This document shows, piece after piece, positions 2 to 22,405 of a stretch of 23,578 bases of DNA (positions within the stretch are counted from its first letter, which is position 1; each line of letters starts with the position of its first letter). The stretch comes from a virus. The notes under the pieces are model-generated. The model was not told where the DNA came from. It saw nothing but the letters and a program-made list of their open reading frames with translations, and searched no databases. The DNA lies in the IMG/VR virus record IMGVR_UViG_3300031857_001425, positions 1-23,578 of that record; one strand, 5' to 3'. Position numbers and translations under genes: made by a program.

Positions 2-3000
2 AAGATAGGTGATAGTATAACATTATCAGCAAACTATGATGCTGAACAGTTAAACAAAATCTCAGACATCATCAGTCAGTTGATTAACGGTTCTGTTGAC
101 GTTGCTAAGAAGGCATGGCTCTTTGATATTCAAGGTAACAAGGAACTGATTAACAGTCTTCTCTTCTTGACTATGGCAGGGGTTCCTGTTGAGGATGCTG
201 TATACTTTTTGTCTCAGCCAATCATACGTGACTTTGTTAAAGAGCAACGTAAGTTCAAGAGTCAGTACTCAAGAGCTATTGGTTATGGAGATGTAGGAAA
301 CTTCTTTAGAAATGAGGCAAGAGATAAAATCTTGTTTAAGGAGAAAGGAGATAACAAGTACGGTTTTAATTGGAAGTTAGCAGACTTCCAAGAGAATAAT
401 GAAAGACCATCTAAGTTTAAAAATAACAGACCTAGTAAGAGACTTGTTTTTGAATCTATTAATGCTCTTGTAGGAAATAGCTCAGATTTTAGTAAGGAGA
501 CCTTAATTAGCCGTCTTAACAAGACAAAGGACTATGATAATTATGACCGTGCTGTATTCCTTCACTTCCTTGAGATAAGTGAGATGTCATCACAGATTAC
601 TCAGCTTACTCAGAACTTGAACTTTGACCGTACAAGAACAGAGACTCTTCTTGATGCAAGATTGAGACTTGCTAAGCTTGATGATCTTACTAATGGTATT
701 GAGCCCGAGTCTATTCAAAATATCATTGAGAACTCTCCGGTATCTGCCTACAAGATCCAAGACTTCATTCTTGATTTATTCAGTGACCTCTTCCCATTAA
801 GGGATAGCAAGGAGTTAAATAATTATATTGAATCTCTTAGCACTAAGGATATATCAGGCATGCCTCCTATATCAGCAGCTAAGAAGATGACTGGCCTGGA
901 TGCTGACCAGTACATTGAAAGATTCAGAAGTGATTTAATTAACTATGTATTCCAATCAGATTACTATAGATTCAATAATAGCAAAGGAGTATATAGAGGA
1001 TTTGATGTACAAGTTCCTATTGAAGGTGTTGCATATCTTCGTGCCGGAGCAAGAGTAAAAGATGGTATCTTATATGTAAGTAAGTCTGATATCCTTACAA
1101 CTTTCCAACAGGAACTCTATTCTAAAGATTCTATGTGGGAGAACAAGGTAGCACCTGTGGAGTCATCTGTATTTGCATTGTATGATGCTAAAACAGCTGA
1201 GGCTCTCTATACTAAGTTTGTATATGAAAGAGAAGTCCTGAGATCTTTTGAGAAGAATAGTCCGGAAAACTTAAAGAACTCATCTATCTACAAGACACAT
1301 CTGAATACATTCAAGAACGATTCAATGCCAGCATTTAAAGCTTATGAGGCTACTCTAAGAGATATGGCTTTGGATAATCTTAACTACCATGGACACATGT
1401 TCTTTGGTGGCCGATCTTATGCAAAACAAGTATTGGATATTAGTAAAACTCTTTCAAATAGATATGAGGTTCTTGATAGACTTGAGATTAGTACAGGAGG
1501 AATATCCTTTATAACAAATGATGGTCAGAAACAAAACATTACCATTAACAATCTTAAGTTTGCTGGAGAAAGACCTACACCAGAAGAGCTTGATTTGTAT
1601 TCTCAACAGATTGCAGAACTAGCTGACCCTACTGTTATCAAGGTTGAAGATTCTATAGAGAATGAAAGAATATCAAAAGTATTTTCAAGATTTGGATTGT
1701 ATGCATTACTTCAGACAGGTATTGATACTACATCAGCATTCAGTCTGATTAGAGCTGTTCCGAATGATATGTTCTATGGTCTTCTTAAGACTTCTTATGA
1801 CAAGGTTTTAGTTGATTTAAAAACTAAATCTAGATCATTACTGAAGGAATATTCAACTCTATTTAATAACCAGTATAGAATTGAGAACAATAACGTAAGC
1901 AACAAGCTTAAGAACTTTGCATTCAATCCTGAGGGTATTCCTTCTGATATTATTAAAATTACTGATGACACCATATCTAGTCTTGAGGCTGATGATGAAT
2001 CAAAAGCTGAGAACATAGGTCGTGTTATTACTATAAATGGTATTAACCTAAATCTTGATAAGCTTGATATACCATTTACACCTAATGACCAGCAGCTAGA
2101 AGCATTGCAACAAATTGCTGACTTCATTGATAATCCTACTCAGGATGTATTTACTCTGATGGGTTATGCTGGTACAGGTAAATCCAGTATCACAAAGATT
2201 GCTCTTGAGTACATGAGACAAAGTGGTCTTTCTATTAATGTAACAGCACCTACTCATAAAGCTAAGAAGGTAATTGCCAAACTAGCAAAGACAGGAGCTG
2301 TGACATTACAGAAACTTCTAGGTCTTGGTAGCTCATCTAAGCTTACTAAGACAGATCTCCGTAAGCTTAAGTTAACTGTACAAAAAGAATCTCTTCTTAA
2401 ACCTGATGTAGTAATTGTAGACGAAGCTTCACTTGTAGGTAATGAGTTATTTGATGCTCTGTCTGATTATGCTGGAGAGGGTAAAACAAAGATCTTATTC
2501 ATTGGAGATCCTGCACAGCTTAATCCTGTTGAGGAAGATAAGACCACTTCTAAAAGATCTAAGGCCTTTGATCATCCTTATAAGTATGAACTGACTAAAG
2601 TAGAAAGACAAGCTGGATCAAATCCACTAGGTCCTATACTTGAAGACATTCGTAATAATCAGAAAAAGAATACATCAGCTATAGATGCTAAAACAGAGCT
2701 TTCTGGTAATCAAGGTATTGTATCAACAAGAGCTGGTGTTGATTTTACAAGACAAGCTGCTGCTGCTTTTATGTCTAAGAATTTTGAACGTAATCGAAAC
2801 TTTGTAAGAATCTTATCATACTCTAACGAAAGAGTAGAACAGTTCAACCAGGTTGTAAGAAAAGCAATGGGTTATAATACAGAATATGTTATAGGTGACC
2901 TTATTATGGCATATGAAAATGTAGGCTATCAAAAAGGTGGAACATATCAAATAAATAACTCTGTTGATTATGAGGTACTATCGGTTCAAGCAGAAAATAA

Positions 3001-4255
3001 AATGACATTCAATGGTCTAGGAGGTCTTGAACTAACTGGATATACAATACAACTACAAGAAATAGATGGTGATGGTAGTATATATGAGAAGTTTGTATTA
3101 ACTAGAGACACTCCTCAAGAAATTATTAATCTTCTTGCTCAGAAACTGGTTGAATATCAAAAATCTTTAGATGCTCAGGTTGAATCAGGACAGATAAAAG
3201 CAAACCAAGCCTTTGCAATATACAGTGGATTGAAAGATTCTATAATGACTCCATTTGACGTTACGGATAAAAAAGGTAGAGTAGTTCTTAAAAAGTCAAT
3301 AGACTATGGCTATGCTCATACTATTCATAAGTCACAAGGATCAACGTATACAAACGTGTTTGTAGATACAGAGTCAATCATTGAGGCACCTGTTCCCCTA
3401 GAAGAGAAAAACCAACTAAAGTATGTGGCTTTTTCTAGAGCAACAAACATTGCTTACTCATTAAATAGAGATGGTCAACTGAATGGTGAAAAAATCAATT
3501 GGGACGGTGACTTTGGTTCTAAGAAAGTAATTGCTGGTAAGATTGGTAAGAGTACAAATAAGAAAAGAATTGGAGATATTCAAACAGGAGACTTGTTTGA
3601 ACTACTTCAAGATACTTCTACTGGAGTAATGACATTTAATGTTCTAACCAAAGAGGATAAGACAACTAAGAAACAAGTTGATCAGTACTCTGAACTTACA
3701 GACGCAGCTGCAATAAAGGTAAGCATTGATTATCCTAATACAATATTTGTAAGAAACGAAGCATCAACACAAAGTAGAGATACTGCTGGTACCAATGTTG
3801 TATACAGAGCCATGGGTGACAGTTCATTAGGTATAAGAACCAAATCATTACCACGTGTTTCTCAATATAAGGAAGCTAAGATCAATGATTTCAATGCTAA
3901 GGCTGCATGGACAGATGCTACTCTTAAAGACAACAAAGCCATGATTGATGAGGATATAGCTGCTCTTATGGAGAAGAAAGAATCCGGTGTCAACCTTGCA
4001 TTTGATGCTAATGGTTATGGCCAGTACCTTATTGGTTACAATGAATACTTCCCTTCAGCTGCTGATGCACAGTATGCTGATAAAACAACACTAGGTGTCC
4101 AAACCTTTTTGTATCTTTCACAACAATTATTTGAGAAGTTCGGATATATAAATCCTCACTACTTGACTTTTGGTGAAGGACGTATTGTTGTACAATATGG
4201 TGCTCCTGTAACAGATGAAGAAATCGCAGACTTTAACAATAAATGCTTTAAGTAA
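2..4255 (+). CDS. Giant multidomain protein with Dda/RecD-like SF1 helicase (5' partial)
   Basis: The reading frame is open to the left edge, so the protein starts outside the window; 1417 residues are visible, numbered here from nt 2. A complete superfamily 1 helicase lies at about nt 2080-3470: a TPNDQQLEAL Q-like motif, Walker A GYAGTGKSS (residues 721-729), motif II VDEAS (about nt 2418), motif III FIGDPAQLNPV (about nt 2497), motif V with TIHKSQGS (about nt 3322) and motif VI VAFSRATN (about nt 3424). Order and spacing resemble phage T4 Dda and RecD2, 5'-3' DNA helicases of the SF1B class. The roughly 700 residues before the helicase and 250 after it match nothing I recognise. Giant proteins in crAss-like phages are thought to be packaged and ejected with the DNA. 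A role in ejected-DNA processing, or in early transcription and replication, is therefore an inference. It ends in TAA directly abutting the next ATG. Confidence 0.85.
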   Translation, partial: KIGDSITLSANYDAEQLNKISDIISQLINGSVDVAKKAWLFDIQGNKELINSLLFLTMAGVPVEDAVYFLSQPIIRDFVKEQRKFKSQYSRAIGYGDVGNFFRNEARDKILFKEKGDNKYGFNWKLADFQENNERPSKFKNNRPSKRLVFESINALVGNSSDFSKETLISRLNKTKDYDNYDRAVFLHFLEISEMSSQITQLTQNLNFDRTRTETLLDARLRLAKLDDLTNGIEPESIQNIIENSPVSAYKIQDFILDLFSDLFPLRDSKELNNYIESLSTKDISGMPPISAAKKMTGLDADQYIERFRSDLINYVFQSDYYRFNNSKGVYRGFDVQVPIEGVAYLRAGARVKDGILYVSKSDILTTFQQELYSKDSMWENKVAPVESSVFALYDAKTAEALYTKFVYEREVLRSFEKNSPENLKNSSIYKTHLNTFKNDSMPAFKAYEATLRDMALDNLNYHGHMFFGGRSYAKQVLDISKTLSNRYEVLDRLEISTGGISFITNDGQKQNITINNLKFAGERPTPEELDLYSQQIAELADPTVIKVEDSIENERISKVFSRFGLYALLQTGIDTTSAFSLIRAVPNDMFYGLLKTSYDKVLVDLKTKSRSLLKEYSTLFNNQYRIENNNVSNKLKNFAFNPEGIPSDIIKITDDTISSLEADDESKAENIGRVITINGINLNLDKLDIPFTPNDQQLEALQQIADFIDNPTQDVFTLMGYAGTGKSSITKIALEYMRQSGLSINVTAPTHKAKKVIAKLAKTGAVTLQKLLGLGSSSKLTKTDLRKLKLTVQKESLLKPDVVIVDEASLVGNELFDALSDYAGEGKTKILFIGDPAQLNPVEEDKTTSKRSKAFDHPYKYELTKVERQAGSNPLGPILEDIRNNQKKNTSAIDAKTELSGNQGIVSTRAGVDFTRQAAAAFMSKNFERNRNFVRILSYSNERVEQFNQVVRKAMGYNTEYVIGDLIMAYENVGYQKGGTYQINNSVDYEVLSVQAENKMTFNGLGGLELTGYTIQLQEIDGDGSIYEKFVLTRDTPQEIINLLAQKLVEYQKSLDAQVESGQIKANQAFAIYSGLKDSIMTPFDVTDKKGRVVLKKSIDYGYAHTIHKSQGSTYTNVFVDTESIIEAPVPLEEKNQLKYVAFSRATNIAYSLNRDGQLNGEKINWDGDFGSKKVIAGKIGKSTNKKRIGDIQTGDLFELLQDTSTGVMTFNVLTKEDKTTKKQVDQYSELTDAAAIKVSIDYPNTIFVRNEASTQSRDTAGTNVVYRAMGDSSLGIRTKSLPRVSQYKEAKINDFNAKAAWTDATLKDNKAMIDEDIAALMEKKESGVNLAFDANGYGQYLIGYNEYFPSAADAQYADKTTLGVQTFLYLSQQLFEKFGYINPHYLTFGEGRIVVQYGAPVTDEEIADFNNKCFK

Positions 4256-7200
4256 ATGGTAGCTTGTCCTATGCCTGGGGTGCTTGATCCCCTTATTGAA
4301 TATGCTAAATCAATTGGTCTTGCAGATATAGCAGAGCAAGAGGTAAAACGTGCTTATCTTACAATCAATCAGAACAAGCAACTAGGAGAGGAAATAGAAA
4401 TTCCTACTATTGAGCAGTTTAATGACATGCTTGAAACTCTTGCTATTCATGCTCCTGGTCTTCGTAATGCACCATTAGGTGCCATGCATAATGGATTTCA
4501 AACATCTATTAATACAAACCCTGCATACAGTACCATTACTAATCCTATTACTCTTGATGTTCAATCACAGAGTAGTATGAAAGTATCAGCAAGACTTGGT
4601 AGATTTCTAAGTTTACTTAGTCAGAATACCGGTGTTCCGTATCAGATGGTTACACCAGAGCAAGCTGCAGAAATAACAGCCGGATCAGTCAATGCATGGA
4701 AAGGTCAACCAGCTTTCTTTTTTCAGGGACAGGTATATGTTATTCCAGGACTGATTACAGAGAAGATGGCATTCCACGAGTTTGCTCATCCTTTAATGAG
4801 AGCAATACAACTATCCAATAAAGCATTGTTTGATAAACTGGTTAACCAGGTATTGGAAACATCTATGGGACCTAAGCTTCTTGAGGCAGCTAAAAATGCT
4901 TACCCTGGATTAGCTGAAGATGATCCTATTATTCTTGAGGAAATGTTGGTAATGGCTCTTACTGAAGCTGCTGTTGAAAAGAAAGATTCAGCATTCAATA
5001 AGTTTATATCAGATCTTCTCTTTGCTATCCGTCAGATGTTGAGAAAGATATTTGGGAAGGATGAGAAAGTCACTATAGAAAAACTGAATGAGAATACTAC
5101 CCTAGAAGAATTAGCTGATATGCTTGTACTGGATAAGTTCATACTTGATCTAGATGCTGTATCAGCAGAAGATGTTGTTGCATATTATGCATCATTAGAT
5201 GAGGTTGTGAAAGATATTACTAATCTTCCTGCCAACAAACTCGTTGATGCTACAAATGAGATGTATACTGTTATGAGCAAGCATCTTAATCTTATTATAA
5301 AAAATAAAGATTATGCTGCAGCAGAAGAGATTATCAAGGATAAGTACAATAGAAATGACATTAGTGAGATCAAAAGAAATCTTACACCCTTTCAGGATTC
5401 AACAACTTTTATAACACAAGAGATTACTAGAATCATGGAGGAGATCCGCACTGCTGAAAGCCATACTATAGCTTTTGTGCAGAGCTTGGATAGATTGTTA
5501 AGCATGGCTACAAAAATGAACCGTGCTATTACTGGTCTCATCAAGGATCCTAATTCAAAAGAGAACATATCTACTGTATTCTATTTTAATGATATCATTA
5601 ATGGATGGGAAAGTTTCATAGATAACTTCAAAGAAAGTCTTGCTGAAGCACAGGAAGAAGGTTACATTGAAGCAGAAAATTCAATCTTTGAACTTGTAGA
5701 GAAGATTAAAGGTCAGATAGACAGTGCCCGTATTTCTACAAGAAAGGTTTACTTCAATGGTACTAGTGAACTAATCAAGACTCAGTTAAAACCAATGCAA
5801 CAGTACATTGACGATAAGTATAAAAAACTTATGGATGATGTAACTAGACTAGGTCTTTCTGAAAAAACTAGACTTCTCCGTATGAAAGATTACTGGGGAC
5901 TAGATGAAGAACAATTAAAAGCTTTCTTGTCTTTCAAAGAAAGAGTAGACAAAGGAGAAAAGCTTACAGGTGTTGCTGCTCAGAACTATGAGAAACTGAA
6001 AAGATTATCATTCAAGAAGGGAGCATACCTATCAGAAGAAAAGATAGACTATCTAATGCAAGGTAATATTGGTGACGCACATGCTACCAATTCCTTTCTG
6101 GAAGCCTACATCTATAACCAGGATCCAATTGTTTTTGGATTTGCATCATGGGTAAAAAACCGAATAACCGATGTTTTAACCACGGCACAAACTAAGGGTA
6201 ATGCATTCATGACTGATGTAAGACCTCTTTTGGAGAAAGCAGGATACAATCAAAGTAATCCTGCAGCCTTTGGTGCTAAGATAACTTTCATAGATAGAAG
6301 ACCAGCCCGTGACAAAGACGGACAAACAATAGATAAGGAAGTAAGAACTATTCTGAATCCCCACAAGGACTATAGAGCAAGTATTGCTAAAATGGATAAG
6401 GCTATTGAAGATGCTGTTTTAAAAGCACAACAAAGTGGTAATGATACTGAGGCTGCCCGTCTGAAGCTAGAAAAAGATATCTTCATGAGAAATTTCTTTC
6501 ATACTCCATATGTAAAGGAATACTATGAGAGATACCGGATTTTCAATAAGGGTGACAATGATACCATTGGTGCCATAGCTGAGATGAGAAGAAAAGATCT
6601 ACAGTCTAGGATTCAAAATCTCTCTACTACTGTAGATAGAAATAGTGAAGAGGAAAACAAGGAAGTATCTGAAGGTCTGGATGTACTATGGAGAGAATAT
6701 CGATTACTGCATTCAAATTATAATGCTGCCGGTCAATTAAAAAGCCCAGATGAAATTGCTATTGCATCAAGACTAAGAGAGTTCAGAGATGCCTCAAAAG
6801 ACTTTTACATATATGAGCCAATGGTTTCACTGTTTACTGATGCTTTGGCAAGATATGAGGATGAACTTTCTAGAAAGAACTACCCACCTCAGGTAGTAGA
6901 GAAACTAAGAATGCAATGGATGGCTCGTAATACTAATATCAAAATCAACGATGATTATTTCAAAGAGGAGAAAAGAATCATGGATAAGCTTAATGCAATC
7001 AAAGCTAAGCTTCCTGTAAACGTTGCTGCAACAATAAAGATTGATGAGGCCTATGAAGAGATGAGACAACTTCTCAATCCTTATAGGGATGATGATATGC
7101 AGCCTGATGGAACAGCTATGAGTATTAATAACGTAGCTGCAATCAAAGCTGTTGAAGATAAGATTGAGAAGGCTAAGGACCTACTTATGGGTATAACAGG

Positions 7201-9976
7201 TCTTACCAAACTTGAACAACAGGAACTTAATGACTTGTTTGAAATAAAATCTACAGGACGTTTAGATCCATTAGAGTATGCAAGATTTACCAAGTTAATG
7301 GACAAGAGATCTCGGTATGGTTTGTCAAAGGAAGATAAGCAAGATATAATGGAACTGTATAATGAACTGTCTGATTTAAGACAGTCAGTTCCTACTGTTT
7401 ATTATTTGGATACAATCAACAATATTTTTGGATTGGTTCCAATTGAGACACTTAAAAAAAGTATTGGGTCAAAAGATATTACCGTTGATAATATTGATAG
7501 AGTTTTAGATCCTACTTTTTATAACACCGTTATTGCAAAATACCCTGAGGTTAAAAAATGGTTTGATGAAAACCACAGCATGAAACAAGTTAGGGATAAA
7601 ACTGGTGGAACAACAACACGTATAACAAGAGTAAGAGCCTGGAGTGTTACAAGACCGAAGGATGCTAGATACTATGAAACATTCAGCTTTACTAACTCTA
7701 AAGGTGAACCTGAAACTGTTCTAGGAGTACCTGCTAAGCAGTATACTCAACGTATTGTAAAAGATGAATACATCACCAAAGAAGTTACAATGCTTGAGGC
7801 ATTAGAACAAGGTGACCCTACATTAGCTACTGTAGATAATTATGGTAAGCACTTACCACGTCTAGATGCTCCTGATAATAGATTTGTCAATCAACAGTTC
7901 TTTGATATCAAGAAAAATGATAGACCATTGTATAATGCAATTTTAGCTCTTTCTAAATATCATTTGAAGTTTCAGGAAGGTAATCCTAGTCAGTCTAAGT
8001 TGTTCTTGGACGTACCTAGGTTTATGACTAGTAACTATGAAAGAAATCTTAACTTCCTAAATGCAGATAAGAAACCAGAAAATCCTATATCTGGATGGTT
8101 TAGAAGTGTTAGAAACTTATTTGTAGGATCTTCAGATGACTTTGATCGTGGATTCAATTATGAAGAACAATCAATGATCATGCAGGGAGATCTATATGAT
8201 GACCAATATGCAGGTATTCCAATACATGGATTATCTGATTTGGAGGTCAATGACGTTTCTTTAGATGTAGTAGGAGGAATGCTTAGATATATGTTATCAG
8301 CTGAAAAACAAAGAGCTCTTATTGAAATGAATCCAATGGCCCGAGCTTTACAGTCTGTACTACATGATCCAGCTAACTATGTAAACATTCAAAAAGGTTT
8401 ATCAAAAGGTCAAAGCAAAGCAAGAGATATTACTAATGCTATGCAACAGAAAGCATTATGGAAACAACAATACAAAGAGAAGTCAGTAAGACAAAAAACA
8501 ATAGATAACTTTATTGAAAGAGAGTTTGAAGGTATAACTAGTAAAGGAGCAATGGCCAGTGATGCAGATATCAGATGGCTTAATAAAGCAGCTCAGAATA
8601 TTATGAAGTTGTCAGCCTTTGGTTACTTTGCTTTAGATGTTCCATCGGCTATGAAAAACGATTTTTCATTAAGAATTCAATCTATGATTGAGGCTGCTGG
8701 AGGTAGATATTTTAATACAGCTAACTACATGAAAGGTCAGCTTTGGGCATCCAATACTGCAATGGATGTTAGTATGAATCTTTACACAGGAAAACCTAAG
8801 ACACATAATGAACAGCTTGTCCAAATATTTGATGCATACCAAGGTAGATTTGAAGAGAAGTTTGGAGAAGACATGTCACGATCCTTTGCAAAAGATGCTG
8901 TAGGAGGATTGAGTTGGATGACTAGTTTTAGAAAGTGGACAGAATTAAATTCAACAATATCCATCTTTGGTGCTATGATGTACCATCAGACTGTTGAAAG
9001 AACCATTAACGGAAGAACAGAAAGGATTCAATACATGGACGCATGGGAAACTGTTGATGGTCAAATCAAACTTAAAGATGGTGTTGATCCTTCTTGGGGT
9101 ATTGGTGGAGATAACTTTAAAGCATTCAAGAACAAAGTACAGGGTGTAACAAATAACCTGGCAGGTTCCTTTGCTAAGTTTGATTATTCTGAAGCTGATA
9201 GATACTTACTATTCAAATGGATTATTGCATTCAAGAGATGGTTTATAAGAATGTTCTTGAATCGATTCCAATTCAGAGGCTCTTGGAGAGATCCTCGATA
9301 TAGATTTGATGCAGCTGTAGGAGATACAGTAATGGGTTATCATGTTGAATCCTTAAGATATCTTATAAGGAGTATTAAAGGAGGTAGTGATTATATGAAA
9401 TCTATAAGTGATTCAGAAAAAACAGCCTTGATGAAATCACTTATAGACGGTGCAAGTTGGTTATTACTTGCAATGTCGGTATCAATGATATTTGGATTTG
9501 ATGGTGATGATCCAGATAAGTTTGAAAAACTTCGTAATAAGTCAGGACCATTACCATTCCCTGGTACACCGGAGACTGAGATGGACTTTAATTTCATGGG
9601 ATGGTTATCAAACCATTCCCTACTGATGGCCATGGGTCTCAAGCAAGAACAAGAACAATGGTTAAATGGTGGACAGTATCTTGAAATGATTAAACTAGAT
9701 TCTGTAGCAATGACTAATACCTTTGCTAACTATTCAAAAATTGGAGGAGGTCTATTGACGCATGCAATGCATAGTCTCTTTGGTACTGATGATTCAAAGG
9801 CATACTTTGATCAACGAGAAGGACCTTATGTATGGATGCAGGAAGGAGGCACTGATAATTGGATTGAAGGAAATAAAGCAATAACATATCTTTCACGATC
9901 ATTAGGAGCAACAGGTAAATCTTTGGATCCAGCAATGGCAGTAACTAACTTTGTAAAAGCACAAAATTGGAGATAA
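4256..9976 (+). CDS. Giant 1906-aa polyvalent/cargo-type protein with zincin motif
   Basis: This very large protein begins at the ATG touching the preceding TAA, in the same frame. Near the N-terminus a hydrophobic strand leads into a helix with H174-E-F-A-H178, the HExxH zinc-binding signature of gluzincin-type metallopeptidases; E228 or E229 in a following helix (LEEMLVMALTEA) is a plausible third ligand. The middle (about residues 250-1100) is rich in charged helices, probably coiled coil. The C-terminal third contains aromatic and basic stretches and one clear hydrophobic segment at about residues 1733-1748 (SWLLLAMSVSMIFGF), which could enter a membrane. Zincin-like domains inside giant phage proteins are a known theme of 'polyvalent' proteins delivered with the genome. 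Whether this one cleaves itself, its neighbour or a host protein is not visible. Function beyond the protease-like domain is unknown to me. Confidence 0.85.
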   Translation: MVACPMPGVLDPLIEYAKSIGLADIAEQEVKRAYLTINQNKQLGEEIEIPTIEQFNDMLETLAIHAPGLRNAPLGAMHNGFQTSINTNPAYSTITNPITLDVQSQSSMKVSARLGRFLSLLSQNTGVPYQMVTPEQAAEITAGSVNAWKGQPAFFFQGQVYVIPGLITEKMAFHEFAHPLMRAIQLSNKALFDKLVNQVLETSMGPKLLEAAKNAYPGLAEDDPIILEEMLVMALTEAAVEKKDSAFNKFISDLLFAIRQMLRKIFGKDEKVTIEKLNENTTLEELADMLVLDKFILDLDAVSAEDVVAYYASLDEVVKDITNLPANKLVDATNEMYTVMSKHLNLIIKNKDYAAAEEIIKDKYNRNDISEIKRNLTPFQDSTTFITQEITRIMEEIRTAESHTIAFVQSLDRLLSMATKMNRAITGLIKDPNSKENISTVFYFNDIINGWESFIDNFKESLAEAQEEGYIEAENSIFELVEKIKGQIDSARISTRKVYFNGTSELIKTQLKPMQQYIDDKYKKLMDDVTRLGLSEKTRLLRMKDYWGLDEEQLKAFLSFKERVDKGEKLTGVAAQNYEKLKRLSFKKGAYLSEEKIDYLMQGNIGDAHATNSFLEAYIYNQDPIVFGFASWVKNRITDVLTTAQTKGNAFMTDVRPLLEKAGYNQSNPAAFGAKITFIDRRPARDKDGQTIDKEVRTILNPHKDYRASIAKMDKAIEDAVLKAQQSGNDTEAARLKLEKDIFMRNFFHTPYVKEYYERYRIFNKGDNDTIGAIAEMRRKDLQSRIQNLSTTVDRNSEEENKEVSEGLDVLWREYRLLHSNYNAAGQLKSPDEIAIASRLREFRDASKDFYIYEPMVSLFTDALARYEDELSRKNYPPQVVEKLRMQWMARNTNIKINDDYFKEEKRIMDKLNAIKAKLPVNVAATIKIDEAYEEMRQLLNPYRDDDMQPDGTAMSINNVAAIKAVEDKIEKAKDLLMGITGLTKLEQQELNDLFEIKSTGRLDPLEYARFTKLMDKRSRYGLSKEDKQDIMELYNELSDLRQSVPTVYYLDTINNIFGLVPIETLKKSIGSKDITVDNIDRVLDPTFYNTVIAKYPEVKKWFDENHSMKQVRDKTGGTTTRITRVRAWSVTRPKDARYYETFSFTNSKGEPETVLGVPAKQYTQRIVKDEYITKEVTMLEALEQGDPTLATVDNYGKHLPRLDAPDNRFVNQQFFDIKKNDRPLYNAILALSKYHLKFQEGNPSQSKLFLDVPRFMTSNYERNLNFLNADKKPENPISGWFRSVRNLFVGSSDDFDRGFNYEEQSMIMQGDLYDDQYAGIPIHGLSDLEVNDVSLDVVGGMLRYMLSAEKQRALIEMNPMARALQSVLHDPANYVNIQKGLSKGQSKARDITNAMQQKALWKQQYKEKSVRQKTIDNFIEREFEGITSKGAMASDADIRWLNKAAQNIMKLSAFGYFALDVPSAMKNDFSLRIQSMIEAAGGRYFNTANYMKGQLWASNTAMDVSMNLYTGKPKTHNEQLVQIFDAYQGRFEEKFGEDMSRSFAKDAVGGLSWMTSFRKWTELNSTISIFGAMMYHQTVERTINGRTERIQYMDAWETVDGQIKLKDGVDPSWGIGGDNFKAFKNKVQGVTNNLAGSFAKFDYSEADRYLLFKWIIAFKRWFIRMFLNRFQFRGSWRDPRYRFDAAVGDTVMGYHVESLRYLIRSIKGGSDYMKSISDSEKTALMKSLIDGASWLLLAMSVSMIFGFDGDDPDKFEKLRNKSGPLPFPGTPETEMDFNFMGWLSNHSLLMAMGLKQEQEQWLNGGQYLEMIKLDSVAMTNTFANYSKIGGGLLTHAMHSLFGTDDSKAYFDQREGPYVWMQEGGTDNWIEGNKAITYLSRSLGATGKSLDPAMAVTNFVKAQNWR

Positions 9977-10157: not shown

Positions 10158-10541
10158 TTATTTACTAAGTATTGAAGCAATGTCTGGTCTTGTATAACCA
10201 GGTCCCTTGAGTATTTTACCATCCTGTCTGTAGATGGGTCTACCATCTGCACCAAGTTTACTCATATTGGACCGGTGAATTTCTTTAAAGATGTCTTCAA
10301 TTTTATCTTGAAGACCGTGTTTTAATATAGTACCATAGATAATGTAAAGCTGATCACCTAAGGCATCAGCAATTTCTACAATATCCTCTTTCTCAACAGC
10401 TTCCAGATATTCTTTATTCTCCTCTAACAGGAGAGAATATCTTAGCTTGCCAAGATTTTGATGTACCAATGTTGGTTTAATAGCATCTTTTTGATCAAAG
10501 ACCTGGTGGAATTCTCCTACCATTTTTACATATTGCTTCAT
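10158..10541 (-). CDS. MazG-like NTP pyrophosphohydrolase
   Basis: This 127-aa all-alpha protein belongs to the MazG/phosphoribosyl-ATP pyrophosphohydrolase superfamily. The metal-binding signature is visible: an EExxE cluster at residues 40-44 (LLLEENKEYLEA) and a second helix with E56-x-x-D59-x-x-x-D63 (VEIADALGDQLY). Family members hydrolyse NTPs or dNTPs to the monophosphate and pyrophosphate, needing Mg2+. In phages, MazG-like proteins are thought to adjust nucleotide or alarmone pools. It is the last gene of the minus-strand operon, followed by the terminator stem, and sits 14 nt after the stop of another small alpha-helical gene. The exact substrate cannot be read from sequence. Confidence 0.8.
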   Translation of the reverse strand: MKQYVKMVGEFHQVFDQKDAIKPTLVHQNLGKLRYSLLLEENKEYLEAVEKEDIVEIADALGDQLYIIYGTILKHGLQDKIEDIFKEIHRSNMSKLGADGRPIYRQDGKILKGPGYTRPDIASILSK

Positions 10542-10555
10542 ATACAGGGTTGGAA

Positions 10556-10912
10556 TTATACATCACGGGTTAACTCATACTTGATACGGACCTCTTCAAC
10601 ATTACGTTGTTTCTCAGTCATCATACCTTTCATGAGTAAGAGATACACAATGGCATCTCCAAACTTCTCATCAATAACAGCTTGATTGGCAGGAACCTTT
10701 CCTGAGATAATATCTTTAATAGATTGAAAATGCTTTGTGGCAAACTCCCAAGCAACCATCTCAGGCTTATCATGGAAACTTAATCCACCAGCAGCATTCT
10801 TAAAATTAGAGAAGACATCACCAGTAGAATACTCTTTGGTTTTATTTACTACTGTTTCTGAAATATCAGTCAAGGTTTTTTGAGCAATAACTGTAAATTC
10901 TGATTTTTCCAT
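10556..10912 (-). CDS. Small alpha-helical protein, possibly MazG/DUF1599-like
   Basis: I chose the internal ATG at 10912 (MEKSEFTVIA, 118 aa). The upstream in-frame start at 10969 would add 19 residues translated across a perfect hairpin (10933-10954), with low-complexity sequence. The protein is predicted helical, with a pattern K-x-K-E-Y....F.NFK.AA followed by ..KH..SI.D and a C-terminal E-K-x-G-D-A-x-V-Y-L-L-L helix. This pattern recalls phage DUF1599/nucleotide-modification-associated domain proteins, which resemble MazG-type pyrophosphohydrolases. The family assignment is tentative. Its position next to a clear MazG-like gene suggests a nucleotide-metabolism pair. Confidence 0.65.
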   Translation of the reverse strand: MEKSEFTVIAQKTLTDISETVVNKTKEYSTGDVFSNFKNAAGGLSFHDKPEMVAWEFATKHFQSIKDIISGKVPANQAVIDEKFGDAIVYLLLMKGMMTEKQRNVEEVRIKYELTRDV

Positions 10913-10932
10913 TTTGTTACAGATAAAGAAAT

Positions 10933-10954
10933 GGGAGGAGTATGACCTCCTCCC
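10933..10954 (-). terminator. Intergenic hairpin, possible terminator or processing site
   Basis: A perfect 8-bp inverted repeat, GGGAGGAG (10933-10940) and CTCCTCCC (10947-10954), has a 6-nt loop. It lies 24 nt past the stop of the DUF932-like gene and 20 nt before the chosen start of the next gene. On the minus strand it is followed by ATTTCTTTATCTG, only a moderate T-tract. It may be a partial terminator lowering expression of the last two genes, or an RNA-stabilising or processing structure. Confidence 0.55.
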
Positions 10955-10978
10955 TTTCTGATAAAACAACTAAACACA

Positions 10979-11947
10979 TCACAAGTCTGGCAAATCAAAA
11001 CGATTATCAGACTCAGTTTCAAAGGTAACAAAATCATCTGAATTAACAGTAGATTCTTCCTGTTCTTTTAGGGGAATTTCATGTTCTTCTTCCGGTTCCT
11101 TTTCTGTTGCCGGTTCTGTTTCCTTTTCCGCTTCTGCTATTGCATCAAGCAAATTAAGCTGATTGGTCGGTGCCTCAAGAGGAACGGTTATCTCAACAGG
11201 AGCCAAAGCAACAGTAGGTTCTGGCATAGCAAGCAGATCAGTCATAAAGTAATGGTGAACATCACACTGTGATTCAAACCATACCTTAGGATGAGACTCT
11301 CTTAAATACTTAGCAATAATGTTGTATACATTCCATGCATTAGTATAGTCCAAGTCTTCAAACATCTTGGTCTTGGTCTTAAGCATATCATAGATACCAC
11401 CAACCTGCTCTTTAGTAAGAACTTGTTTCTCAATGAAGAGACGGCCAATAGCCTCAGCAATTTGCCTCTCTGTAAGAACAACCTCCTTCAGCTTATTCTT
11501 AGCATCTACAAGAGCATCATAGTAAACATCTGCTCCCTGGATTTGAGATTTAATCTGATCCATTGCTTCCTGATCTGCCTTACCTGTATGCTTTCTAGCA
11601 TAGTTAGACATGTTGCCAGCAAACATGAAAGTCTTAGTGCTCATAATATAGACACCAATACCACATGTGAATCTTCGGGATTTGTCATAAGAGTTACCCC
11701 AGGCAAGAACCATCTTGAGATCCATGTCGGATCCATGGTCCATAAGAACAATACCATTGGCAATATTACCCGTAACTGTTGATCGATAAAGCTCAGACTT
11801 TACAGCAAGACCTTTACTTTGGATTTCAGTTAGAGTCGTATCAATAATAGATTCATGACTGATTGGAGTGTATCTTCCTCCGTGATTAGGCAGACTTATA
11901 CTTTTGAGATACTCTTTTGTAGTTGAAGCTGCTATTTTTCTACTCAT
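10979..11947 (-). CDS. DUF932-like phage protein with acidic C-terminal tail
   Basis: The chosen start is the ATG at 11947 (MSRKIAASTTK, 322 aa), one base after the polymerase stop (TAATATG). The frame is open 23 codons further upstream, but that stretch lies inside the polymerase gene. The N-terminal half has the layout of DUF932 proteins: GRYTPISHESIID, then a conserved beta region (IVLMDHGSDMDLKMVLAWGN) and a Cys-containing R-R-F-T-C-G-I-G. DUF932 proteins occur in phages, plasmids and genomic islands without a firmly established function. The last 60 or so residues are very rich in Glu and Asp and probably disordered. Such a tail could mimic DNA or recruit partners, but this is inference. 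It sits directly downstream of DNA polymerase. The stop is TGA. Confidence 0.72.
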   Translation of the reverse strand: MSRKIAASTTKEYLKSISLPNHGGRYTPISHESIIDTTLTEIQSKGLAVKSELYRSTVTGNIANGIVLMDHGSDMDLKMVLAWGNSYDKSRRFTCGIGVYIMSTKTFMFAGNMSNYARKHTGKADQEAMDQIKSQIQGADVYYDALVDAKNKLKEVVLTERQIAEAIGRLFIEKQVLTKEQVGGIYDMLKTKTKMFEDLDYTNAWNVYNIIAKYLRESHPKVWFESQCDVHHYFMTDLLAMPEPTVALAPVEITVPLEAPTNQLNLLDAIAEAEKETEPATEKEPEEEHEIPLKEQEESTVNSDDFVTFETESDNRFDLPDL

Positions 11948-11948
11948 A

Positions 11949-13952
11949 TTAAAATAGATTAAGTTGTTGCACTGGACTGTATCCAGTAATATTGTTAATC
12001 TCCTTGTACATAGCATCTGTATAGTAAGATGTATTTATATCATAGTTAATCCACGGTAATTTTTGGTAGTAGTTGAATTCAGTCAGTAGCCATTTGCCAG
12101 CCTGAACTTGAATCTCTCTTCCATCAACCTTGTTCATCTTATGAATCTTACATCCCTTATTACTTACATAGTACCGGACAATCTTCTGGAGGTTTCTTTC
12201 ATACTTATCTCCTTGAACATAGCATACCTCTTTGAACATCCAATCTCCTTTGGCCTTGGCACCTGCACAGTAGTCAAATATGTTTTTGTTCTGAGCAACA
12301 GTTTCCTCAGGTAACATATTATGAATAAAGTAATTGTAGATGCCTTTAGGGACAACAAGGAAACTCTTGTTCTTATGAAGGGCTAGGTTAGAGAATTCAA
12401 AACGACCTTTACATTTAGTAGCATTGTAGAAGTATCTACCAGCCTTTTCAGTAAAAGCATAATGAGGATTCTCCTGGCGGATCTTTTCGTAATCAAGTTT
12501 GGAACACTCCTTTGAATTAAGCATGGCTATATAGTTATTGACATCAGCAATAACCATCTTTTTGTACTCATCATGCTCAAGCTGCAGAGCTGTGATCTTT
12601 TCCCACTCAGCACATATCTCAAGATACTTAGTCTTCATATGTGCAGGTATCATCATCTCGAGACCATCAGTGTTCTGCATTAATGGAATACTTCCCGGGA
12701 TCCCTTCAGAGAGCATCTCATACAACATAACCAGACTAAGCTGGCCATTGATTGTGATTCTCATCGTGAACTCAGGGTCATACAGGAAGCTATTGACATC
12801 ATTGCTTAAGCCATAAGTACTGTTCAGAATGATCTTATAGACATAGTTCCGTGGATCTTTCTTTGGTATCTTCAATCTTTCCTGAAAGAACCATTCATAC
12901 TGATCACAGAAGTCATTCTTTGGTAGATGTGCAGGAGCCCATCTATTCTTGATTGCAAGGTTTGGATAAAAGCTAGTAACGTCAGATGTCATTATAATCA
13001 TACCGTTACCAGCTTCATACACTCCAGGTTTAGTAGCACCATGGATACCACCTAATCCAAAATCAGTTGTAACTCCCTTATGTTTAACAGAATACTTGAA
13101 GCCACCTTTAGTATCATTGGCATTGATTACCAATGTCTTAAACTGATTATGTATTTGTTTAAACTCAGGAAGGTTAAACTTGATGTAAGGTAATAGAATA
13201 GAGTCCACGTTTATGAAGTCTCTATGAGTACGAAGCTGTTTGAGATCATACTTGGTCATACCAATCTTCTTAGCTAGGAACAAGGAGAACAACTCCTTTG
13301 ATATCCTGGGTTCAGAAGCACTATTCAAATTGATACCATAGGTACTATAGTCCTTAGTAAGATTTAGTCGTAGGGCTATCTGATTCTTGCTTTGAAGAAA
13401 GATATTATTAGTAGACTTCACGTCATTGATACAGTACTGAATAACAGTATCAAGCTGATCCTGTGTTTCAATAGGTGTACTATGATGTATAGGCATCTCC
13501 TGGATGTTATACCAATCCATGCTATACTGAATCCATTTAAGACTGGATGACTTGGCCGGATTATCCCAGTGATTAAGCTTGAATAAATCAATCTGTTTGA
13601 CCAGAAGATTTTTCTCAGGATGTTTAGGAAAAGAATTGGAATTTGCCAAATCAATTGTTTCCTGTGCTTTCTTGTAGATAAGATGGGCTGCTTCTGATAC
13701 CGAACACTGTAAAAGTGTATTAGAATTCAGTATGATATACTGAGTAATCTGAGAGTCAAAAGCAATACCATTGAAACTAATGTGCCATTCAGAATGATAT
13801 GAGTTATTCAGCAAGAAATCAAACAAGGCCTGACGGTCATCTCTAAGTTCGTGGATTGCAAAAACACGGATGTCATCATCCTCTTTATAATGTTGAAACA
13901 CTGCAACAAAACAGTTGATCAGGGTTTCATAATCATGTATCCAATGATTCAT
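11949..13952 (-). CDS. Family B DNA polymerase with 3'-5' exonuclease domain
   Basis: This 667-aa replicative polymerase has both domains. Exonuclease: Exo I D7-Y-E9, Exo II N61-G-I-A-F-D66, Exo III Y173-C-I-N-D177. Polymerase: motif A D324-V-T-S-F-Y-P330, motif B K373-x-x-x-N377-S-x-Y380-G381, motif C N427-T-D429-G. Two things are odd. Motif C reads NTDG rather than the usual DTDS, keeping only the second Asp. The distance from motif A to motif B is only about 49 residues, so the fingers region is very short compared with RB69 or phi29 polymerases. Crassvirales encode either family A or family B polymerases, and this fits the B type. No TPR1 or TPR2 insertion typical of protein-primed enzymes is obvious. 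The stop TAA is one base before the DUF932-like ATG. No Shine-Dalgarno is visible. Confidence 0.92.
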   Translation of the reverse strand: MNHWIHDYETLINCFVAVFQHYKEDDDIRVFAIHELRDDRQALFDFLLNNSYHSEWHISFNGIAFDSQITQYIILNSNTLLQCSVSEAAHLIYKKAQETIDLANSNSFPKHPEKNLLVKQIDLFKLNHWDNPAKSSSLKWIQYSMDWYNIQEMPIHHSTPIETQDQLDTVIQYCINDVKSTNNIFLQSKNQIALRLNLTKDYSTYGINLNSASEPRISKELFSLFLAKKIGMTKYDLKQLRTHRDFINVDSILLPYIKFNLPEFKQIHNQFKTLVINANDTKGGFKYSVKHKGVTTDFGLGGIHGATKPGVYEAGNGMIIMTSDVTSFYPNLAIKNRWAPAHLPKNDFCDQYEWFFQERLKIPKKDPRNYVYKIILNSTYGLSNDVNSFLYDPEFTMRITINGQLSLVMLYEMLSEGIPGSIPLMQNTDGLEMMIPAHMKTKYLEICAEWEKITALQLEHDEYKKMVIADVNNYIAMLNSKECSKLDYEKIRQENPHYAFTEKAGRYFYNATKCKGRFEFSNLALHKNKSFLVVPKGIYNYFIHNMLPEETVAQNKNIFDYCAGAKAKGDWMFKEVCYVQGDKYERNLQKIVRYYVSNKGCKIHKMNKVDGREIQVQAGKWLLTEFNYYQKLPWINYDINTSYYTDAMYKEINNITGYSPVQQLNLF

Positions 13953-14006
13953 AATAAGACTGTTCAGTTAAGCTGTTCCCCCATTTATTGTTATAACTGA
14001 TACCCC

Positions 14007-14402
14007 TTATTGTGGGGTACCAGTCTCAGAAGTTTCAACTACAACCTGATTCAGATATGTAGTATAATCATAAGTGTCTGCATTACCAGCAAAATGCTTG
14101 ATAAAACTTTCAATCTCAGACTTTTCTTCAATGTAATATTCTTGGTAAGTTTCAAGAGTACGTCTCTCTTCCTTGTTAGGATTACCATTTCTGCCGGGAG
14201 ACTTCCTTCTCTCAGGATCTCCATTAGCATCCAGCTTGGTAATCATATGGAACTGGTCTTTCTTATTCTTGCTTATAGCAGCAAGTACTTTGATTTGTGG
14301 ATCAAAGATGCATTCTACAAATGGGCACTCAGCCGAAGTAGGAATCATCTTGAATGTTTTACCGTCTTTCCACGTAGACGTGATAAGCATCATGTTACTC
14401 AT
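14007..14402 (-). CDS. Unknown 131-aa protein upstream of DNA polymerase
   Basis: I do not recognise a family. The protein has an N-terminal beta-rich part (MLITSTWKDGKTFKMIP, then CPFVECIFDPQIKVLAAIS), a basic loop rich in Arg, Lys, Asn and Gly at about residues 64-80, and a helical acidic C-terminal half. The fold could be a small OB-like or replication accessory protein, but nothing fixes this. It lies 54 nt upstream of the polymerase start and 29 nt downstream of the 185-aa gene, in the replication operon. A small inverted repeat (TACCCC/GGGGTA) overlaps its stop codon. The start ATG at 14402 is followed closely by two more Met codons, so the exact N-terminus is uncertain by 3-4 residues. 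Confidence 0.75.
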   Translation of the reverse strand: MSNMMLITSTWKDGKTFKMIPTSAECPFVECIFDPQIKVLAAISKNKKDQFHMITKLDANGDPERRKSPGRNGNPNKEERRTLETYQEYYIEEKSEIESFIKHFAGNADTYDYTTYLNQVVVETSETGTPQ

Positions 14403-14431
14403 AAATGTTGGTTTTACCTTCCAAAGGTAGT

Positions 14432-14989
14432 TTAAATTTCAAAAATATTAATCTTTCTTTCCATAGCATGTAATGTTTCTTTCTCGAAATCAGGAACAGA
14501 ACATAGTTCTCCAACCTCTCTTAGAAGAGACTCCTTGACACCTAGCAACTTAGCATAATGTTCAAAGTAAATCTCAGGATGTAGGTAACTATTTATATGA
14601 TGATACGTAGCTTTATTAGTAAGAAAGAATTTAAGAATCTTGTTCTTAACATCAGGGCTTAACTTGGAATACTTACCTTGTAGGAAGTATTGCCAGTCTT
14701 TAGAGAAGTCCTCAAAATTAAAAACATATACACCTAGGCCACCTTCTGTTTCATAAAAAGAATGGAACAGTTTATTACCAGTTAGCTTGGCTTTCTCAAA
14801 CCTTACAAAGGCTGTATCATCACGTAAATAATAGGTACATACAAACTTGCATGAATCAGATGAGAACTTGTCAGTCCAGCAAACATAACTTTCTACGGGC
14901 ACTGCTTCAGATCCTTTCTGGATATCTAGCAGAGGGTAGAGAAATATTCTTGACTTCTGAATATACTCTTTATGCAGTTTTGTAATCAT
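14432..14989 (-). CDS. Unknown 185-aa protein
   Basis: No recognisable domain. The sequence looks globular and mixed alpha/beta, with several aromatic residues and Cys at two positions in the N-terminal third (SYVCWTDKF, SCKFVCTYYL); the C-terminal 70 residues are helical (TYHHINSYLHPEIYFEHYAKLLG). The start is one base after the stop of the exonuclease gene (TAATATG), which indicates translational coupling to that nuclease. A conserved crAss-like replication-block protein is likely, but its function is unknown. Confidence 0.75.
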   Translation of the reverse strand: MITKLHKEYIQKSRIFLYPLLDIQKGSEAVPVESYVCWTDKFSSDSCKFVCTYYLRDDTAFVRFEKAKLTGNKLFHSFYETEGGLGVYVFNFEDFSKDWQYFLQGKYSKLSPDVKNKILKFFLTNKATYHHINSYLHPEIYFEHYAKLLGVKESLLREVGELCSVPDFEKETLHAMERKINIFEI

Positions 14990-14990
14990 A

Positions 14991-15959
14991 TTACAATATT
15001 ACTTTGAGGGTTGCAAACTCATAGGGTAAGTCATACTGTCTAGATTTATAATGGTAGTGAGCTATGTTTAGCTTTGCTTCCATTTCTGTAATCCAAGACT
15101 TCATTGTATCATCACTTACTTCAAACTCATATACCTGTTGATACTTATCAATAACCACAAAAGAAAACTTAATAGGCTTATCAGATGTTGCACCAACAAG
15201 CTTATGATAAATGGCAGCTTGCAACCAGTAGTTGTAATAGTCAACTGTTTCTTTAAAATCAGACAAGGTCTTGTTAGTAGTCTTGAGATCGATGACATGT
15301 ATATGATCATCATACTCTACAATTCTATCTACAATACCTTTGATTCCAAAGCTATAGTTATCTAACTTAAGAGCCAGTGGTACTTCACTTGTGAAACTAA
15401 GAGCAATGTTATCCTGAATAGTACCTTGTAGGCTATTCATTATAGTTTGATTAGAACTTATAATTTCTACATAGCCCTTGATCTTATCAAGAGTTTCCTG
15501 GTCTATGATGTCTCTACCTTTCTTTGTACCTAAAAACTGAAAGTAACCAATAGAATCATCAGTTACAATCTTGTCTAGTCTTTGCTGATCGGTCTTCAGT
15601 CTCTGATGAAAATTAGCATCAATCATAGCCTGCAGAACATGATCACCTAGCACAGACAGATCCGGATCCACATTGAGTTCTAAGGCCTTTTTGTATACAG
15701 CATCTAGTACGATCTTGGTAGGACCCGTGGGTAAACTACCAGGCATCATTACAAACTGTCTTTCAAAACTGGCCTCATCTAGAAGCAGACAATGCAATAA
15801 TCTACCTTCAATCAGGTGAGCATCTGTCTTATCTTCCCGTTGGTTAAGGATATAATGCCGGTAAAAAACTGTTGGTGAAAACAATAACTTGTTCAAACCA
15901 GAATAACTAAAATAGAATTTTTTGGAATAGAACTCGTCTTCCAATAGTATATCACGCAT
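14991..15959 (-). CDS. PD-(D/E)XK exonuclease, RecB/Cas4-like
   Basis: This 322-aa protein has the signature of phage RecB/Cas4-type nucleases. The N-terminus has S-x-S-x-L-N-K-L-L-x-S-P, a helix with G-R-L-L-H56 contributes a metal ligand, and the core shows D211 in GIVDRI and the D224-L-K226 pair in VIDLKTTNK, with a possible E192 upstream. These form the complete PD-(D/E)XK active site. There is no four-Cys iron-sulfur cluster, unlike classical Cas4 and AddB. Enzymes of this class degrade DNA from ends. In a replication operon this one probably processes double-strand ends or replication intermediates, perhaps together with the Sak4-like recombinase at the right edge; that partnership is inferred. 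Confidence 0.85.
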   Translation of the reverse strand: MRDILLEDEFYSKKFYFSYSGLNKLLFSPTVFYRHYILNQREDKTDAHLIEGRLLHCLLLDEASFERQFVMMPGSLPTGPTKIVLDAVYKKALELNVDPDLSVLGDHVLQAMIDANFHQRLKTDQQRLDKIVTDDSIGYFQFLGTKKGRDIIDQETLDKIKGYVEIISSNQTIMNSLQGTIQDNIALSFTSEVPLALKLDNYSFGIKGIVDRIVEYDDHIHVIDLKTTNKTLSDFKETVDYYNYWLQAAIYHKLVGATSDKPIKFSFVVIDKYQQVYEFEVSDDTMKSWITEMEAKLNIAHYHYKSRQYDLPYEFATLKVIL

Positions 15960-15990
15960 ATAATAAATTTACAAATTAAACAGATAGATC

Positions 15991-17064
15991 CTATAAACTA
16001 TTGATTATTTGCTGAGGTTTATGTTGATTCATATATTCCTCGTAAGTCAATGTTGTATAGGATACATTGATTACTTGAGAAAGAGCTGTATCTTTTGCAT
16101 GATGATTAATCAAATCCTTAAGGATAGATCGTGATAGACTGTAATACAACTCTTCTGTTAAAGCATTTTCTTTTTGCATATACATGATAAAATCAGGGTC
16201 ATCTAGATGATGAAACTCATTAACCTTATCTGTAAAATTCCTTGCAAGTTTGGTATTAAGACTAGCTCTTCTTCTAATGTTGTGATAAGATGAATTATAT
16301 ATAAGTCTTAGATACTGAGCAGACTTCATAATATCAGATCGACACATCAAATCAAAACCAACACTAACATCATTCTTGTCAGTAGAATTAACCATACTGT
16401 TTATAGTTTCATACATAGCTTCATCAATCACAATCTTTTCCAGACTATCTAAGAAGACCTGTTCGTTGACTACTGGAATCTTTTTAGCCAGTTTCCAATA
16501 AACTATCTCCATAAATTTATCAGTAAGTGCATCTTGAGTATAGAACTTAGTATCAAAATAGAATGATTCCATATGTGGAGATTCAATATTTGCACCAAAT
16601 AAAATCTTTTCTCCTAAAGCAGGAGCTCCACCAATGTATGCTGTTACAGATTCTAGACTTTTTTCTTTGACAGAATCCGTGTAGCAAAATAATCTACCAC
16701 CAATTTCTCCTCCCCTATAAGAAAGATAATAAGCATTAGAACTATTGTACCAATTATCATGACCGATAATTGCATCTGCATTTTTTGGATGACCCGTAAT
16801 TTTATATCCGTTCTGTCTACAATATTCTTTGTAGTCATCCATTTTCAAAGAACCATCTGGTATAAAGAACAGCTTCATATCTTTCTTAAGAACAGCTGCA
16901 GTATCCCTTCCCGAAAGAAGAGATACTACACGTCCTAAAGATTCATGTGACATGGTGTGAGCTACATAACCAGATTTCTTTTTAGGAAATACAGATATTT
17001 GTTCATCAATAAATTTGAGATTTGCCAATTGCTCTGCAGTCAGAGCTGACTTGATTATACTCAT
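15991..17064 (-). CDS. Unknown 357-aa protein coupled to MoxR ATPase
   Basis: I do not recognise a family. The N-terminal part contains two possible small alpha/beta regions (KKSGYVAHTMSHESLGRVVSLL and KLFFIPDGSLKMDDYKEYCRQNGY), followed by a Gly-rich segment (GGEIGGRLFCYTD) and a C-terminal half that is largely helical. No Walker motif, metal triad or membrane segment is visible. Its ATG overlaps the TAA of the MoxR-like gene (TAATG at 17062-17066), so it is translated with the ATPase and may be a partner or substrate of the MoxR-VWA pair. It ends in TAG, with an in-frame TAA five codons later. Confidence 0.78.
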   Translation of the reverse strand: MSIIKSALTAEQLANLKFIDEQISVFPKKKSGYVAHTMSHESLGRVVSLLSGRDTAAVLKKDMKLFFIPDGSLKMDDYKEYCRQNGYKITGHPKNADAIIGHDNWYNSSNAYYLSYRGGEIGGRLFCYTDSVKEKSLESVTAYIGGAPALGEKILFGANIESPHMESFYFDTKFYTQDALTDKFMEIVYWKLAKKIPVVNEQVFLDSLEKIVIDEAMYETINSMVNSTDKNDVSVGFDLMCRSDIMKSAQYLRLIYNSSYHNIRRRASLNTKLARNFTDKVNEFHHLDDPDFIMYMQKENALTEELYYSLSRSILKDLINHHAKDTALSQVINVSYTTLTYEEYMNQHKPQQIINSL

Positions 17065-18254: not shown

Positions 18255-18256
18255 AC

Positions 18257-19456: not shown

Positions 19457-19881
19457 TATTTCTTTGGTATAAGTTTTAGATCAAAGTCTTCCATGAAAGT
19501 AAATCCCCAACTAACCATTACTGAACCTAAACTAGAAGCAAATCTTTCTAAGAAATATTGCATAGCTTCTGGTTTAATATTCTCGTGAGCCTTAACCTCA
19601 GTATACAATCTGTTATAAGTAAGATCTTTTGGGTTATCACTTAATGTTAGATGTATACAGTGTTCATTCAACTTTTCTCTGATAATGTTTAGGAATACAG
19701 TCTTTCTATTCTCAACAGAAGACTCCTTAAACATGATCAAAAGATACGGAAGATTTGCAGCAACATCAATGTTTCTAATAGTTTCTTCTACAACAGTAAG
19801 ATTAGTTTTATCATTGCTTTTAAGCATCTGAAGAATGTTGTCACATACCTCAGATGTAAGTTCTAGATTATTACTTTCCAT
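19456..19881 (-). CDS. Unknown 141-aa protein coupled to the VWA gene
   Basis: This predicted all-helical protein has no motif I recognise. The N-terminus (ELTSEVCDNILQMLKSND) and middle (LPYLLIMFKESSVENRKTVFLNI) look like helical repeats. Its start overlaps the stop of the 75-aa gene and its stop overlaps the start of the VWA gene, both through TAATG, so it belongs to the same coupled translation unit. It could be an adaptor for the MoxR-VWA pair; this is inference from position only. Confidence 0.72.
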   Translation of the reverse strand: MESNNLELTSEVCDNILQMLKSNDKTNLTVVEETIRNIDVAANLPYLLIMFKESSVENRKTVFLNIIREKLNEHCIHLTLSDNPKDLTYNRLYTEVKAHENIKPEAMQYFLERFASSLGSVMVSWGFTFMEDFDLKLIPKK

Positions 19882-20108
19882 TAGTCTTCTATTTTTAAAG
19901 TTTTAATAATCTTATTTAATTCTTGTAAACAAGCTTCTTCAGCTTCTTCATAGGTTTTAAACCCTTTACTCCATTTTAATACAGCCAAATGATTTGGTTT
20001 ATAATAAATTACATATCCATAATTACCACCATATTCTGGTTCTATTACTTCAACTAATCCAACATAACCATGCTCATCTCTTATTTCTTTAAAAGTTTTC
20101 ATAGTCAT
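19881..20108 (-). CDS. Unknown 75-aa protein
   Basis: This short protein has a beta-rich N-terminal half (GYVGLVEVIEPEYGGNYGYVIYYKP) and a C-terminal helix (TYEEAEEACLQELNKII), resembling a small single-domain alpha/beta fold. No family is recognised. Two start codons are possible, at 20108 and 20102; the first overlaps the 3' end of the upstream 46-aa membrane peptide gene by 20 nt. It ends in KIED, as does the 113-aa gene further upstream, and the DNA around both ends is nearly identical over 18 nt. Confidence 0.7.
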   Translation of the reverse strand: MTMKTFKEIRDEHGYVGLVEVIEPEYGGNYGYVIYYKPNHLAVLKWSKGFKTYEEAEEACLQELNKIIKTLKIED

Positions 20109-20570: not shown

Positions 20571-20571
20571 A

Positions 20572-22364: not shown

Positions 22365-22380
22365 GATGGTAAAAAGAAAA

Positions 22381-22400: not shown

Positions 22401-22405
22401 ATATA

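Follow-up and report, generated by a model that had tools for sequence, protein, structure and literature searches.

Closest described systems

Both the virion RNA polymerases (vRNAPs) of crAss-like phages and the Dda helicases are already known. For the former the closest described protein is gp66 of phage phi14:2 (PDB 6VR4), and for the latter T4 Dda (3UPU), a free protein of 439 residues. The vRNAP of phage N4 (gp50) is a T7-type polymerase that is unrelated to the crAss-like vRNAP. Here we describe IMG/VR record IMGVR_UViG_3300031857_001425, positions 1–23,578 (hereafter the window, the whole stretch of 23,578 bases that was analysed), whose first open reading frame (ORF), at 2..4255 on the plus strand, encodes a protein that homology identifies as the C-terminal portion of a crAss-like vRNAP of the phi14:2 gp66 type, with a Dda-type helicase cassette inside it. 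While phi14:2 gp66 is 2180 amino acids (aa) long and has no helicase, a chain of the window type measures about 3880 aa and carries both the cassette and a terminal domain. The N4 protein resembles it in being a giant, ejected virion RNA polymerase with a large accessory C-terminal domain, though that domain has not been reported as a helicase (PMC12633501).

As far as the literature was searched, the fusion of the two enzymes is new. In its text, Yutin 2021 lists a superfamily 1 (SF1) helicase as a conserved gene and describes a transcription block of large multidomain proteins, some of them with a PDDEXK domain; that text, figures apart, mentions no helicase in the transcription block. A search for crAss-like vRNAPs that include a helicase domain returned no paper, and the titles and abstracts from related searches do not describe such a fusion.

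Identity of the giant protein

The first ORF has 1417 open codons and reads past the left edge of the window, so that the gene is 5'-truncated. Its parts are as follows:

2..1936, plus strand: C-terminal region of the vRNAP by homology, window residues 1–645, placed by a profile match, by a 6VR4 alignment of the relative G001 that reaches into it, and by residue numbering against that relative
1934..3685, plus strand: helicase cassette, a Dda-type superfamily 1B (SF1B) helicase with linkers, core residues about 691–1152, placed by helicase searches, fold and a clean insertion/deletion
3686..4252, plus strand: terminal domain of the vRNAP chain, with a weak DUF7831 match, seen both with and without the helicase

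The original prediction, made from the window alone, missed the RNA polymerase (RNAP), since its catalytic motif falls outside the window, beyond the 5' edge. The two double-psi beta-barrels of a gp66-type chain would likewise fall upstream of the window. The DxDxD catalytic signature can instead be read in G001, a 113-kb IMG/VR contig encoding an 88%-identical relative of the window protein. The G001 ORF is complete at 3880 aa and, as in the window, a 1906-aa gene follows it immediately. It contains GGDFDIDKMF at residue 2240 and the helicase Walker A motif at 3176, 936 residues later; window residue 1 corresponds to residue 2451 of this chain, 211 residues past the DFDID motif. When the G001 chain was compared to the PDB with phmmer it matched 6VR4 (E 5e-22), the aligned stretches being residues 2198–2538 (i-E 6e-11) and 1749–1895 (i-E 3e-9). 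A profile built solely from the vRNAPs of other lineages (phi14:2, Suoliviridae and distant environmental phages) matched window residues 5–205 with an E value of 1.3e-39; the remaining window ORFs and the reversed decoys gave no match. Queries with pieces of the RNAP part gave no phmmer match in the PDB, while the full-length query and the independent profile did match; the HMMER speed filters are probably behind this failure. A modelled fragment of the RNAP C-terminal region behind the catalytic motif is mostly helical, with a predicted local distance difference test score (pLDDT) of 67, and structure comparison gave Z below 4 to unrelated chains and no row for 6VR4, which speaks neither for nor against the assignment. 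The DUF7831 match of the terminal domain (E 0.0019) is under cut-off strength, and ATP-grasp and CARF Pfam matches in the window protein, also below cut-off, were disregarded.

The ORF is under purifying selection in all three parts, the ratio of nonsynonymous to synonymous substitution rates (dN/dS) between the window and G001 being 0.15 in the RNAP part, 0.19 in the helicase and 0.15 in the terminal domain.

The helicase domain

An intact set of SF1 helicase motifs within a protein of at least 1417 residues had been claimed from the window sequence, and this reading holds. Motifs I, Ia, II, III, V and VI are present, the SF1B set is kept in 10 fused homologues, and the domain matches the Dda-like helicase family PHROG 325 with an E value of 1.6e-83. 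Helicase families span residues about 652–1152 of the window protein, with Pfam matches to AAA_30 (3e-26) and UvrD_C_2 (2e-7), and a PDB sequence search matched Dda-type chains with E values as low as 3e-22. VERQ is also among the SF1B motifs read; the others with coordinates are:

2162..2185, plus strand: motif I (Walker A), GYAGTGKS, residues 721–728; GYAGTGK[ST] is invariant across all fused homologues
2420..2431, plus strand: motif II, DEAS, residues 807–810
2504..2521, plus strand: motif III, GDPAQL, residues 835–840
3317..3349, plus strand: motif V region, HTIHKSQGSTY, residues 1106–1116
3422..3445, plus strand: motif VI, YVAFSRAT, residues 1141–1148

An AlphaFold2 model made with seven sequences (pLDDT 66 overall, 80–90 over much of the core) has a predicted Dda-like core of two RecA domains. 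Foldseek matched it to 3UPU with an E value of 5e-26 and a template modelling (TM) score of 0.75 on the target, and via structure comparison T4 Dda scored Z 26.7 over 413 aligned residues and RecD2 Z 22.6. In the predicted structure the motifs assemble into a RecA-like core; the opposite outcome, which the original prediction had named as counting against it, did not arise. The window helicase is a complete Dda-type SF1B helicase and not a chance set of motifs, and it is strongly expected to have ATPase and unwinding activity. It shares the SF1B motif set and fold of T4 Dda, and differs in being a domain within a vRNAP chain.

Occurrence of the fusion

When viral contigs were searched with the whole window protein or with its helicase part, the near relative was the sole match; a scan with the RNAP core yielded more. 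Among the best 80 of 431 IMG/VR loci similar to the RNAP core, which are the nearest relatives of G001 and so do not give a population frequency, a helicase lies within the RNAP ORF at nine loci, which make up seven distinct lineages from the environment once near-copies are set aside (L026, L027, L028, L029/L030/L054, L031, L037 and L042). At L027:13818-13858 the fused helicase is split over two frames at an A-rich run, by either a sequencing error or frameshifting.

In a phage collection, whose vRNAP ORFs were read with TAG read-through where needed, the fusion is present in the gut Suoliviridae cr118_1 (Besingivirus coli, 4946 aa) and cr50_1 (Cohcovirus hiberniae, 4774 aa). Both have the vRNAP motif and a C-terminal Dda-type helicase in one ORF, as the window type does; they differ from it in that the chain ends with the helicase, no terminal domain following, and cr50_1 adds an A1S_2505 domain before the helicase (L017, 17764-18510; NF049995, E 3e-33). 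In public records MT774379.1 / NC_055872.1 and MT774375.1 / NC_055868.1 the giant vRNAPs bear no label but 'DNA helicase' or 'exonuclease V', and the present assignment corrects the annotation of these two gut genomes. No fused helicase was found in cr10_1, cr1_1, cr56_1, cr113_1, cr124_1, cr273_1, cr85_1 or phi14:2 from the same collection. MT835492 and MT835470 were considered as fusions and rejected; their helicases stand alone, delimited by in-frame stops that include TAA.

Each fused genome has one helicase match, located in the RNAP ORF. The Intestiviridae, including p-crAssphage, have instead a free Dda homologue of 480–490 aa, and other crAss-like phages carry stand-alone Dda homologues in the replication block beside uracil-DNA glycosylase and DNA polymerase. 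A scan of a genome collection for the host found no relative.

Presence and absence of the cassette, and its possible loss or exchange

Two vRNAPs of the same clade, L034 and L035, have the RNAP core joined directly to the terminal domain, with window residues about 645–1228 missing en bloc and no helicase elsewhere on their contigs. The terminal domain also ends most helicase-less vRNAP ORFs. The window clade, which has the cassette, and L034/L035, which lack it, pair up naturally and are ready for comparison.

In a tree of the RNAP, made by a quick method and containing several long branches, the fused state occurs in three separate places and needs 5 changes, at least 3 of which are forced by starred (well-supported) branches. 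In the helicase tree the fused helicases cluster, weakly (73/87, not starred). Both trees would be accounted for by repeated loss, or by exchange of the helicase module among vRNAP genes. Between the window and G001 the divergence at fourfold sites is 10% in the helicase segment (window 2072–3457, residues 691–1152) against 26% and 32% on either side of it (Fisher p 1.6e-6), a comparison that was picked once the domains were known. This roughly threefold lower divergence may point to a recent recombination event in the cassette segment. The tails of vRNAPs seem to host varied enzyme cassettes.

Gene neighbourhood and probable packaging

Downstream of the giant protein the window contains:

4256..9976, plus strand: 1906-aa homologue of phi14:2 gp65, a virion RNAP-associated protein, identified by iterated profile search and by its same position in phi14:2
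10158..23490, minus strand: convergent replication/nucleotide block (MazG-like protein, DNA polymerase, exonuclease, ATPase, HNH, primase), used as a positional reference

The helicase-bearing gene had been described as lying opposite to the replication genes and next to a second giant protein; both observations stand, with the replication genes on the minus strand and the 1906-aa ORF adjoining. The sign of the guanine–cytosine (GC) skew switches at about 10 kb, between the two blocks. In G001 the vRNAP gene lies within a single co-directional block that includes head-protein homologues, and the features of the Crassvirales, namely a phage-type vRNAP, a convergent replication block and a structural block, are all present. 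The genes for TerL, portal and MCP fall outside the window.

A comparison with known cargo proteins had also been proposed; the chain is homologous to phi14:2 gp66 and its neighbour to gp65. The 1906-aa ORF and gp65 are linked by iterated profiles (E 4e-15 in the second round and 1.6e-21 in the reciprocal search). The phi14:2 genes run g067, g066 (the catalytic RNAP), g065 and then the convergent block, and the order in the window is alike; the two systems also share the homologous core with DFDIDK and the position in the structural block. The phi14:2 record credits the annotation of g066 and g065 to tandem mass spectrometry (MS/MS) proteomics, and in crAss001 virions the RNAP-associated proteins gp47, gp49 and gp50 were detected by mass spectrometry (PMC10172136). 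Because of this homology, shared order and virion evidence from relatives, there is a strong case that the window chain is packaged in the virion together with its gp65-like partner. The packaged and injected helicase of the original prediction is thereby better founded, through vRNAP homology and synteny, though the protein that carries it had gone unrecognised as an RNAP.

Proposed role of the helicase

The roles first suggested for an injected helicase ranged from pulling in the genome to starting replication or transcription at once. Since the protein that carries it is an RNA polymerase, the likely role is to aid that polymerase on its template, and the emphasis shifts from genome pull-in to this. 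The vRNAP polypeptide and its gp65-like partner would be ejected into the cell alongside the genome, where the vRNAP would act first, ahead of the phage replication proteins, and in the first minutes the tethered helicase would open or clear double-stranded phage DNA for it. Dda-type enzymes translocate 5'→3' on single-stranded DNA; for one bound to the non-template strand, this is the way transcription runs. A helicase on that strand could travel with the polymerase, opening the DNA ahead. The N4 vRNAP does not work on native double-stranded DNA, and a role of its C-terminal domain in binding or unwinding DNA has been put forward as a speculation by its authors (PMC12633501). Direct binding to RNAP is known for bacterial SF1 helicases, PcrA among them (PMC8318588).

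We consider it reasonably likely that a helicase cassette has been inserted between the vRNAP core and the terminal domain, and that the polypeptide is packaged and ejected with the helicase aiding template opening. The injected transcription machine would probably bring its own DNA-unwinding motor, and we have moderate confidence, at about an even chance, that the helicase is coupled to early transcription. More tentatively, and a little short of an even chance, a single packaged and injected polypeptide may combine a multisubunit-type RNAP with a DNA helicase that melts or clears the double-stranded template without host factors, in a cassette that vRNAP genes gain and lose over evolution. 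How the vRNAP of crAss-like phages, the most abundant human gut viruses, finds and opens double-stranded early promoters would, in lineages with the cassette, have a direct and testable explanation in a helicase that is part of the ejected polymerase.

Several points weigh against this interpretation. The sister vRNAPs of L034/L035, cr10_1, cr1_1 and phi14:2 have no such helicase, so the cassette is dispensable for vRNAP function in general and the helicase would be an aid, not an essential part. The models are of moderate confidence (pLDDT 66–67), the giant protein could be cleaved after synthesis, and virion proteomics or biochemistry was not found for any fused phage, all those met being uncultured.

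Of the alternatives, the best survivor is still unlikely. The helicase might act in R-loop or origin remodelling, with vRNAP transcripts processed to primers or R-loops removed, so that the onset of replication would be tied to early transcription. Helicases of the PcrA/UvrD kind associate with RNAP and keep R-loops down (PMC8318588), and other crAss-like phages do have stand-alone Dda homologues among their replication genes, but no sequence feature ties the cassette to an origin, and packaged proteins would act before the replication proteins are produced.

Slightly less probable again is a motor for genome entry, in which the ejected helicase would grip the incoming DNA and reel it into the cell by ATP hydrolysis, with the polymerase as a second motor. 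Loading of Dda-type enzymes requires single-stranded DNA, whereas the entering genome is double-stranded, and sister phages enter cells without the helicase. In favour of such a motor, transcription by the N4 vRNAP is thought to help draw the genome in (PMC12633501), and crAss-like vRNAP fusions have been suggested to couple DNA translocation with early transcription (PMC10770324).

We regard as equally improbable a polyprotein that is cleaved to release an ordinary free Dda for replication, or whose helicase is never packaged. No second Dda-type match was found in the fused genomes, so that the role of replication helicase may fall to the fused domain, and conservation is lower in the linker ahead of the helicase core than elsewhere. 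The gene sits, however, in the structural/transcription block, and the terminal domain common to helicase-less vRNAPs follows the helicase, which makes the cassette internal with no free end. Finally, an artefact of assembly or annotation (two joined genes, or a chance motif set) can be rejected with near certainty, for even though the window is a fragment cut within a gene, the same architecture recurs in many independent assemblies and in two phage-collection genomes, dN/dS is 0.15–0.19 throughout, and the helicase fold scores Z 26.7.

Other domains in vRNAP tails

Besides the template-opening helicase proposed here, other domains were seen in vRNAP tails. The fused vRNAP at L037:2813-16741 (plus strand) has an extra P-loop kinase domain, polynucleotide-kinase-like (AAA_33, E 1e-17), between the helicase and the terminal domain. 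At L082:11603-15751 (plus strand) a vRNAP has, in its C-terminal part, a 2OG-Fe(II) oxygenase domain (E 5e-11) in place of a helicase. The vRNAP tail of cr10_1 (L022, 10866-13280) has a cpYpsA SLOG match, and the vRNAP ORF at L079:4949-17233 (plus strand) extends for 1975 aa past the core, with DUF7831 as the sole recognised match in this tail.

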